A model generated the notes under the pieces. The model worked only from the letters and a program-made list of their open reading frames with translations, did no database searches and was not told the origin of the DNA. From a bacterium (GTDB lineage Bacteria; T1Sed10-126): a stretch of 5,618 bases of DNA. Every line of letters starts with the position of its first letter. The first letter of the stretch is position 1. Below, piece after piece: positions 2,999 to 5,618 of the stretch. The position numbers and the translations under genes are program-made. The stretch lies in the NCBI GenBank assembly GCA_003554945.1, contig PWHN01000045.1, positions 1-5,618 of the forward strand. The letters are read 5' to 3'.

Positions 2999-3760
2999 AT
3001 GGAGATTAACGAGTTGATCAGGTTAGCGCCCGGGGAAGAGAAGAAGCTCAGCATCCCCTACGCCGATATAGAATTAAGTTATGACGGAGATTCTCTGCAG
3101 TATTTTCGTCTGGACGCAGAGACGGGGGAAGTTTTAGCAGAAAAAAGTTTTTTAACCACCACAGGACGGGACGTGGAATTGAAGCTTACTCCCGTTTATC
3201 CCGACAGGCCAATAGTGTTCAAACCCGAGACGGAAGTAACTGTGCTGCCGAAAAGACGAGTCAATTTTTTTCTTACGCTACCTCTTGCCTATACGCTGCA
3301 GCTCATCCGCAGCGAAAGTAATCTTGAAGAGGTGCTTAATACGGTCCGTAAAAACACTTACTGGGGACCGCCAACCAGCGGTGTGTTAGCGTATGAGCAT
3401 CAGAGCCCCCTCTGGACAAAGGAGGAGGCGGTTTACCGGGAAGCAGCCGAGCCTGCAGCAACTGTTCCGGTGGTTTTTGTTAATCAACTGGACGACGAAT
3501 TTTTATTGAACAAACTTCTGGTACCACTGTGTGAGCTTGAAATATATTTAACCTCAAGTGGTGTACCCATTTTCAGAAGCGCCCGGGTAGAGCAGCGCGA
3601 CGAAGAAAATCAGGTTTCGCGGCCGGCGGACAGGCATCTACAGGATCTTGATTATGAACAAAAAATTTGTGATCCGCCCACTCCACCCCGTTCACTGCTG
3701 GAGAAGGTCAGTAAATTTTCGGGCTGGGGACAGCTAACGGGGGTGTTTGGAGACCGATGA
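2999..3760 (+). CDS. DUF432-family protein, unknown function
   Basis: A 253-residue cytosolic-looking protein with no signal peptide or membrane segment. I assign it to DUF432 from remembered family character: an early segment with SYDGDSLQYFRL (27-38), a middle VLPKRRVNFFLTLPLAYTLQL stretch (82-102), and a YWGPPTSGVLAYEH motif (121-134) that resembles the family's YG-P-x-x-G-x-x-x-x-Y signature. The rest looks beta-rich; the C-terminal 60 residues are charged and proline-containing (CDPPTPPRS, 224-232). The start is well supported: GAGAGG at 2985-2990 sits 8 bases before the ATG. Its stop overlaps the ATG of the MscS gene (ATGA), which implies coupled translation in similar amounts. Known DUF432 members are, as I recall, mainly archaeal and sometimes beside MscS genes. 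A role as a soluble partner or regulator of the channel is inference from context only. Confidence 0.78.
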   Translation: MEINELIRLAPGEEKKLSIPYADIELSYDGDSLQYFRLDAETGEVLAEKSFLTTTGRDVELKLTPVYPDRPIVFKPETEVTVLPKRRVNFFLTLPLAYTLQLIRSESNLEEVLNTVRKNTYWGPPTSGVLAYEHQSPLWTKEEAVYREAAEPAATVPVVFVNQLDDEFLLNKLLVPLCELEIYLTSSGVPIFRSARVEQRDEENQVSRPADRHLQDLDYEQKICDPPTPPRSLLEKVSKFSGWGQLTGVFGDR

Positions 3761-4620
3761 TATTAGTTGAAGCCGTATTTGAGAGACTGGTAGAAACAGT
3801 GGGCGACTGGTCCTGGAATCAGATAACAATAATTTTACTGACGGCAGTCTTAGGTTTTCTTATTGCCCGGGTGATAGCGAAACTGACCGGGAGACAATTT
3901 GAAAAAAAGACGGACTCTACCACCGGTATGATTGCTGAAAAAATTGTTTTTTACACTTTACTGGCGGTAGTGGGGGCAATTATTTTGAGGGAACTGGACG
4001 TAAGTCTGGGAGCTTTGCTTGCTGCGGGTGGATTTCTTGGGCTGGCCGTGGGTTTTGCAGCTCAGACCTCGGTGTCTAACATGATCAGCGGAATTTTTTT
4101 GATATTTGAGCGGCCGTTTCAGGTTGGAGACGTTCTCAGAATAGATGATAAATTTGGTGCTGTGCTGAGTATTGATCTGCTTTCTACCAAGGTGCGAACA
4201 TTTGATAACCTCTACTGGCGTATTCCAAACGAAAAAGTTTTGAAAAGCGATTTCACTACAATTACCAAGTATGATATTCGCAGGCTGGACGTCAACGCCA
4301 GTATAAGTTACGACGATGATATTGGCACGGCCCGTCAGGTTCTGCTGGAGTGTGCGCAGGAGGAGCCGTTAATACTCGGTGATCCCGAGCCAACCGTTCT
4401 AGTCACAAAGATGGCTGATTCAGGGATTGAACTGATTCTGCGCTGCTGGTTTTACAAGACCGATTTTCTGGCCGCGCAGACGGAACTTATTCAGACGGTA
4501 AAAGAACGGCTGGAAGCAGCCGGCTGTACTATTCCTTTTCCCCATCGAACGCTATATGTCCGCAACGAGGAAGACTGGCAGAAGGCAGCGGCTCTTGAAA
4601 ACGACGAGGCCGACGAGTAA
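3757..4620 (+). CDS. MscS-family mechanosensitive ion channel
   Basis: Small-conductance mechanosensitive channels open under membrane tension and release ions and solutes during hypo-osmotic shock. The 287 residues match the size of E. coli MscS (286). Predicted inner-membrane helices are TM1 about 22-43, TM2 about 58-78 and the pore-lining TM3 about 84-118, with the Ala/Gly-rich packing pattern LLAAGGFLGLAVGFAAQ (87-103), then SNMISGIFLIFERPFQVGD (107-125), the hallmark of the family. The soluble beta and alpha/beta cage domains follow (126-270), including VRTFDNLYWRIPNEKV (146-161), close to the family's R-T-x-D-N-x-x-x-x-x-P-N. The tail is acidic (ENDEADE). GGAG lies 4 bases before the start. 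The start overlaps the DUF432 stop and hypD begins 3 bases after the stop, so it sits mid-operon. MscS paralogues vary in gating and ligand; which type this is cannot be told. Confidence 0.94.
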   Translation: MILVEAVFERLVETVGDWSWNQITIILLTAVLGFLIARVIAKLTGRQFEKKTDSTTGMIAEKIVFYTLLAVVGAIILRELDVSLGALLAAGGFLGLAVGFAAQTSVSNMISGIFLIFERPFQVGDVLRIDDKFGAVLSIDLLSTKVRTFDNLYWRIPNEKVLKSDFTTITKYDIRRLDVNASISYDDDIGTARQVLLECAQEEPLILGDPEPTVLVTKMADSGIELILRCWFYKTDFLAAQTELIQTVKERLEAAGCTIPFPHRTLYVRNEEDWQKAAALENDEADE

Positions 4621-4623
4621 CTT

Positions 4624-5618
4624 GTGAAGTTTCTTGAAGAGTATCGGGATCCCGAAAAAGCAAGAAGTCTGGCCCGTCAGATTGAGTCGGTGGTGACTGA
4701 AGAATGGCGAATAATGGAGATCTGCGGCGGACAGACTCACGCAATACTGGAGTATGGGATTGACCGGCTTCTTCCTGCAAGTGTAGATTTGATTCATGGC
4801 CCCGGCTGTCCGGTCTGTGTTACCCCAATAAGTAAGATAGACAAGGCGCTAAAGCTGGCTCAGCGTCCGGAAGTTATTTTCTGTTCTTTTGGTGACATGC
4901 TCAGGGTCCCCGGTTCTGAGGGAGACCTTCGCTCAATTCGTTCGCGCGGTGGCGACGTCCGGATCGTCTACTCACCTCTGAACGCGGTAGAAATAGCCCG
5001 GGAAAATCCCGACCACGAAGTAGTTTTCTTTGCAATCGGTTTTGAAACCACCGCCCCGGTAAACGCTCAGGCGATTCGGCGAGCCGAAGCGGAGGGGTTG
5101 GACAACTTTTCTCTCCTGGTTTCCCAGGTTCTTGTTCCGCCGGCTATTCGAGCAATTAAGGAAGCGGAAGACTGCCGTGTTGATGGTTTTCTTGCGGCAG
5201 GTCACGTTTGCACAGTAATGGGCTACTGGCAGTATGAACCGCTGGCGGAAGATTATGAGACACCGATTGTAGTAACCGGATTTGAACCGTTTGACTTGCT
5301 GCAGGGGCTGCATATCTGTCTGAAACAGCTTGAAGCGGGACAAGCTGAAGTTATGAACCAATACAGCCGTGCGGTAACTCGCGAAGGGACTAAAGCGGCG
5401 CAAGAGCAGATTGAAAAAATTTTTAAGGTGGTTAATCAGCAGTGGCGTGGTCTGGGTGAGATACCAAACAGTGGACTCGCTTTGAAAGGGAAATATAACA
5501 AGTTTAACGCTGAAGAAAAGTTTGAGATAACGGTTGAAGAAGCAAAAATACCCGACCAGTGTATCTGCGGGCAAATACTCCAGGGGCTCGTCCGGCCGTC
5601 CGAATGTCCGGCTTTTGG
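4624..5618 (+). CDS. hypD: [NiFe]-hydrogenase maturation factor HypD, 3' end cut by window edge
   Basis: HypD, an Fe-S protein working with HypC, carries the iron atom on which the two CN ligands (from HypE/HypF) and the CO are assembled before transfer to the hydrogenase large subunit. The frame is open from GTG 4624 to the edge: 331 full codons of a protein usually near 365. Key motifs are CGGQTH (34-39) and HGPGCPVC (58-65), giving the three essential cysteines C34, C62 and C65; CSFGDM (87-92); GFETTAP (139-145); and [11 protein letters not shown] (191-201). At the end, C313, C315 and C328 (CIC...ECPAF) are three of the four usual ligands of the C-terminal [4Fe-4S] cluster; the fourth would lie beyond the window. 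The N-terminus [14 protein letters not shown] fits the family start. It begins 3 bases after the channel gene with only a weak GAG (4615-4617) ahead, so translation may be coupled. hypE would be a typical downstream neighbour. Confidence 0.97.

Follow-up and report, generated by a model that had tools for sequence, protein, structure and literature searches.

MscS serves as a standard model in the study of mechanosensation, where it is generally regarded as a channel that works alone. Two described systems bear on the locus reported here. In E. coli, FtsZ binds the cytoplasmic domain of MscS (PMC4440785), and in Pseudomonas aeruginosa the cmaX-cfrX-cmpX operon encodes a CorA homologue, the uncharacterised 84-residue protein CfrX and an MscS homologue (PMC7641640). 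A literature search that left many subscription-journal papers and bioRxiv preprints outside its scope did not find the whole words DUF432 or COG2430 and, within the same limits, the literature on MscS accessory proteins gave no description of a DUF432-MscS pair.

Layout of the locus and the channel gene

The window (the whole stretch of DNA analysed, 5618 nucleotides) carries moaA, moeA, an ORF of the DUF432 family, mscS and the start of hypD in this order, all on the forward strand. Its features are as follows.

315-1325, + strand: moaA
1318-2556, + strand: moeA
2985-2990, + strand: GAGAGG, 8 nt ahead of the first ATG and possibly the ribosome-binding site of the DUF432 gene (suggested by the sequence)
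2999-3760, + strand: gene for a DUF432-family protein of 253 residues, predicted to be soluble and all-beta (weak PF04254 match, strong linkage to the broader family by profile comparison, AlphaFold2 model)
3356-3394, + strand: DUF432 core motif, TYWGPPTSGVLAY in the window and TWFGPSTEGELCY in the family consensus (family alignments)
3749-3752, + strand: GGAG, a possible ribosome-binding site of mscS within the 3' end of the DUF432 gene (suggested by the sequence)
3757-3760, + strand: ATGA start-stop overlap of the DUF432-family gene and mscS (read from the sequence)
3757-4620, + strand: gene for an MscS mechanosensitive channel of 287 residues, from the DUF432-paired clade (PF00924, PF21082 and PF21088; tree)
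4174-4233, + strand: clade signature D140, L142, R155 and E159 in the MscS beta-domain (comparison of paired with unpaired MscS)
4624 onward, + strand: hypD, start only

The sequence-only reading had described an ATGA overlap that joins a soluble protein to an MscS channel. This is confirmed, positions 3757-3760 being common to both ORFs. An equal gene pair with an equal ATGA overlap is present in the other genome of the window's phylum (G001; two genomes were sampled), where the first protein is 36-38% identical to that of the window, and the overlap occurs at 14 further loci. The second ORF scores 37.8 bits with PF21088, 68.4 bits with PF00924 and 51.4 bits with PF21082, all above the cut-offs; by these pore-helix, beta-domain and C-terminal domain profiles it is assigned to the MscS family, with tension gating predicted. 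The closest solved relative of the encoded channel is MscS (E = 1.6e-37).

The hypD start lies 3 bp past the mscS stop codon (window positions 4621-4624), and the G001 contig stops after mscS. Arrays of an 8 bp unit (AAAGTTGG and variants) occupy intergenic positions 180-286 and 2555-2622 of the window. With up to two mismatches allowed, a 21-mer of the octamer unit matches the genome at 81 sites, compared with two for a reversed control; the arrays are dispersed in the genome. A heptamer array (AAACTGG, CAACTGG and TAACTGG) is located at 2825-2887, just upstream of the DUF432 gene.

Family membership and predicted structure of the DUF432-type protein

The first protein of the pair aligns with PF04254 (DUF432) over nearly the full length of the model (positions 17-122 of 123), with a score of 18.0 bits (E = 0.0034) that does not reach the curated gathering cut-off of 21 bits. 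A bridging profile was built from relatives only, leaving out the window protein, G001 and five Pfam-grade DUF432 proteins of archaeal type; it detects the window protein at E = 5.7e-25 and the five Pfam-grade proteins at E = 7e-9 to 1.5e-4, and hhalign gives 99.4% and 93.8% for the links to the window protein and to the Pfam-grade members, respectively. Since this non-circular profile connects it to Pfam-grade DUF432, the window protein is, by profile comparison, a divergent relative, rather than a Pfam-grade member, in a wide family that PF04254 covers only in part. The Pfam model itself reaches just 61 of the 96 relatives at E = 0.1 or below (best 5.8e-36). The DUF432 identity proposed from the sequence thus holds at the level of the wider family, as the bridging profile and hhalign indicate, and narrowly misses the Pfam cut-off. 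The window protein shares with PF04254 the same broad family, and Pfam-grade members in one bacterial phylum also adjoin MscS, but it lies under the cut-off and is without most of the family's tryptophans. PF04254 members in Pfam include archaeal DUF432 proteins (Methanosarcina acetivorans); the neighbour counts given below are for bacterial loci. A single-sequence scan of genome contigs with the window protein found no relative, and a plasmid search with a Pfam-grade relative gave no match.

The window protein has all the conserved core positions of its broader family, namely P65, D69, R70, P95, G123, G128, Y132 and N162 in window numbering. P65, G123 and N162 are invariant across 107 relatives and, within the core motif, G128 is conserved at 99% and Y132 at 93%. 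The usual tryptophan and cysteine of the DUF432 core are replaced by Y121 and A131.

The AlphaFold2 model of the window protein is all-beta, with a mean pLDDT of 83.9 and a pTM of 0.77; the model of a relative reaches 91.4 and 0.89, respectively. A hydropathy peak of at least 1.6 over 19 residues occurs in only five of 107 family members, and DUF432 is predicted to be soluble and all-beta. Its C-terminus consists of a variable linker, a conserved arginine and a short hydrophobic segment (consensus PR...LxRxFxxLF), which is a helix at low confidence in the window model and is not a helix in the model of the relative; this segment could be a docking element. A search of PDB sequences with the family profile returned nothing credible (best E = 0.8), and Foldseek and VIA-align searches with the two models found no match at E = 0.001, no Z score above 6.5 and no functional hint from the fold. 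Sliding clamps and beta-propeller blades were considered as fold matches and rejected, as they cover the models partially and score at random level. The absence of a structural match does not prove a new fold.

Recurrence of the pair and co-inheritance with one MscS clade

Pooling of all surveys and removal of duplicates left 108 evaluable loci, spread over many bacterial phyla, and MscS is the next gene downstream on the same strand at every one of them. The two genes overlap at 24 loci (16 by ATGA) and are separated by 0-20 bp at 59, by 21-50 bp at 19 and by larger gaps at six, such that 102 of the 108 pairs overlap or lie within 50 bp. The sequence-only reading had taken a recurrent overlap with MscS, should it exist, as a sign of partnership and had proposed that MscS adjacency be counted across DUF432 genes. 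Adjacency is without exception among the evaluable loci, and a lack of preference for MscS neighbours did not occur; the ATGA overlap itself is confined to 16/108 loci, with short gaps at most of the others.

The individual surveys agree. A four-sequence profile of DUF432 only, searched in 386 bacterial genomes, detected the family in 16, with MscS directly downstream on the same strand in 16/16. A PF04254 search in the phylum of one of these genomes gave 13 places in 12 genomes, all 13 paired, including both DUF432 copies of one genome, and a 398-genome sample from the phylum of G146 contained six DUF432 loci, again all paired. The species-representative scan yielded 80 named loci from Gemmatimonadota, Pseudomonadota, Thermodesulfobacteriota, Deinococcota, Nitrospirota, Acidobacteriota, Chloroflexota, Kiritimatiellota, Myxococcota and others; all 76 evaluable loci are paired, and the remaining four are cut off by a contig end 66-101 bp past the DUF432 stop codon. 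The match in genome G304 also lies at a contig end, where pairing is not evaluable. Acinetobacter baumannii carries the pair, annotated as a hypothetical protein and a mechanosensitive channel, as do many cultured bacteria, among them Colwellia, Paraglaciecola and Malonomonas. A Phycisphaerae MAG (L051) and a Porticoccaceae MAG (L039) contain near-alike pairs under different phylum labels, which reflects either recent transfer or a mis-binned contig.

The scattered and rare occurrence of the pair (16/386 and 6/398 genomes) would suit an accidental linkage or a relic of horizontal block transfer. This reading is already contradicted and scarcely credible: gene order is kept at 108/108 loci while the flanking genes are mostly unrelated, varying widely among pairs apart from those of CorA type, and MscS genes are a small minority (32 matches in ten genomes). 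With only about three MscS genes per genome, chance is not a serious explanation of the pairing.

The tree of MscS proteins (104 paired, 29 unpaired) gathers every paired protein into one clade (95/94 support). A single unpaired protein joins them, an additional copy from a genome with a pair of its own. The other 28 unpaired proteins, including a paralogue from the window's own genome, lie outside. Tree distances of DUF432 and MscS correlate with r = 0.92, compared with a permutation maximum of 0.37, and the two trees have 25 well-supported splits in common, with conflict at five of 41. The paired alignment amounts to about 26 effective sequences, too few for coevolution analysis. Because pairing holds at 108/108 loci, involves one MscS clade and is mirrored in the trees, we regard a genetic partnership of DUF432 with this clade as highly probable.

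The reverse search of the same 386 genomes with a paired-MscS profile gave 19 matches above 320 bits, of which 16 are paired, followed by one at 284 bits and then by matches at 240 bits or less. No DUF432-like gene was found upstream of the three unpaired proteins above 320 bits or of the one at 284 bits, and in a quick tree these four group within the paired clade, as would follow from a single gain of DUF432 and about three losses. Clade members without DUF432 are L136 (genome G422), L180 (G141), L183 (G278) and L185 (G267); mscS is followed in both G141 and G278 by a HAD-phosphatase-like and a YjbQ-like gene, names that come from reading the sequences. The notion that a channel of the paired clade always needs DUF432 is rejected, as some clade members are without it. 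Dependence is asymmetric, in that DUF432 always occurs with MscS and MscS of the paired clade can lack DUF432, as expected of an accessory factor.

The signature of the paired clade lies in a part of the beta-domain that corresponds approximately to residues 149-168 of E. coli MscS (window numbering + 9); compared with unpaired MscS, the clade also has T104, at the position of E. coli residue 113. D140, R155 and E159 are all kept in at least one clade member without DUF432, which weakens them as a candidate DUF432 site; since they are common to at least one unpaired member, they describe the subfamily rather than such a site.

Asymmetry and gene order also bear on a reading in which DUF432 is an assembly or stability factor that would assist folding of the MscS subunit or formation of the heptamer without belonging to the working channel. 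The DUF432-first order with its short spacing or overlap suits co-translational assembly, and some members of the paired clade do without DUF432. E. coli MscS, in turn, assembles without such a helper, and restriction to a single clade hints at a feature specific to the channel type; we consider an assembly factor unlikely.

Proposed role of DUF432 and comparison with known systems

The sequence-only reading had suggested a cytosolic partner of the channel, for example one that might bind its cage domain or sense a ligand or osmotic state. The soluble prediction, co-inheritance with a single clade and asymmetric dependence all favour a cytosolic partner. In the reading that we prefer, with somewhat more confidence than doubt, DUF432 is a cytosolic accessory protein that would bind the paired MscS subfamily and adjust its gating or inactivation. 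DUF432 is encoded first, accompanies one subfamily, is dispensable in a few lineages and is sometimes found near an ion transporter, all of which argues for an accessory role, and, as it lacks a signal or membrane segment, it would be expected to reach the channel from the cytosolic side, on which the beta-domain and cage of MscS are exposed. The two proteins are probably made from one transcript, often by way of overlapping stop and start codons. DUF432 would most likely bind the cytoplasmic side of the MscS heptamer, either at the beta-domain or at the underlying cage, and its most likely action would be on the opening threshold or inactivation of the channel. The pair would thereby contribute to osmotic and ion control, in some cases alongside a divalent cation transporter of CorA type.

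CorA-type genes flank 19 of about 107 loci (11 upstream and eight downstream) in several phyla, and ten of these neighbours were checked against PF01544; the loci include L034, L036, L040, L118, L119, L121, L024, L053, L062, L066, L115 and L130, among others. CorA as an obligatory third component was rejected on this count.

Two proteins that shared a process without contact would likewise be inherited together as a gene pair, for example if DUF432 bound a small molecule or handled metal with CorA during osmotic or ion stress. The CorA-type genes on either side of the 19 loci, and the 84-residue protein between CorA and MscS homologues in P. aeruginosa (PMC7641640), are consistent with such an arrangement. 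However, CorA is present at a minority of loci, whereas MscS is always present and always downstream, and neither an enzyme-like motif nor a structural match was found for DUF432; a role apart from the channel is improbable on these grounds. It is also conceivable that DUF432 is an effector, released or altered on channel opening, that signals to another target, given that the cytoplasmic domain of MscS can bind other proteins, such as FtsZ in E. coli (PMC4440785). No recurrent regulator or second target gene accompanies the pairs, their neighbours being diverse except for CorA, and we judge an effector very unlikely.

Returning to the accessory-protein reading, we tentatively put forward a more specific form of it, in which DUF432 would be the first dedicated auxiliary subunit of a bacterial MscS channel. 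The protein, soluble, all-beta and perhaps with a fold not yet recognised, may dock on the cytoplasmic side of one subfamily and set gating or inactivation according to conditions in the cytosol, for example ionic strength or divalent cations. A DUF432-MscS partnership would give DUF432 its first functional assignment and, if the proposal is true, would mean that tension-gated channels of bacteria are open to regulation by proteins dedicated to them. A DUF432 partner would also make the role of the MscS cytoplasmic cage directly testable, and the presence of the pair in cultured bacteria and A. baumannii makes material easy to get.

The window channel has the same transmembrane, beta and C-terminal domains as E. 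coli MscS (PDB entries such as 7onj and 2oau), with residues 25-280 aligned; it differs in the D140, R155 and E159 of its clade in the beta-domain and in the pore helix, where T104 replaces the glycine at E. coli position 113. The P. aeruginosa operon has the order of CorA homologue, uncharacterised protein and MscS homologue that is seen at some DUF432 loci. The idea that CfrX belongs to DUF432 was dropped on account of its length; at 84 residues it is a third of the size of DUF432, the comparison being by length and order only, and CorA is an occasional neighbour of the DUF432-MscS pair. The E. coli MscS-FtsZ interaction places a cytosolic protein on the MscS cytoplasmic domain, as proposed here for DUF432, but FtsZ is a general division protein and not a channel-dedicated gene neighbour.
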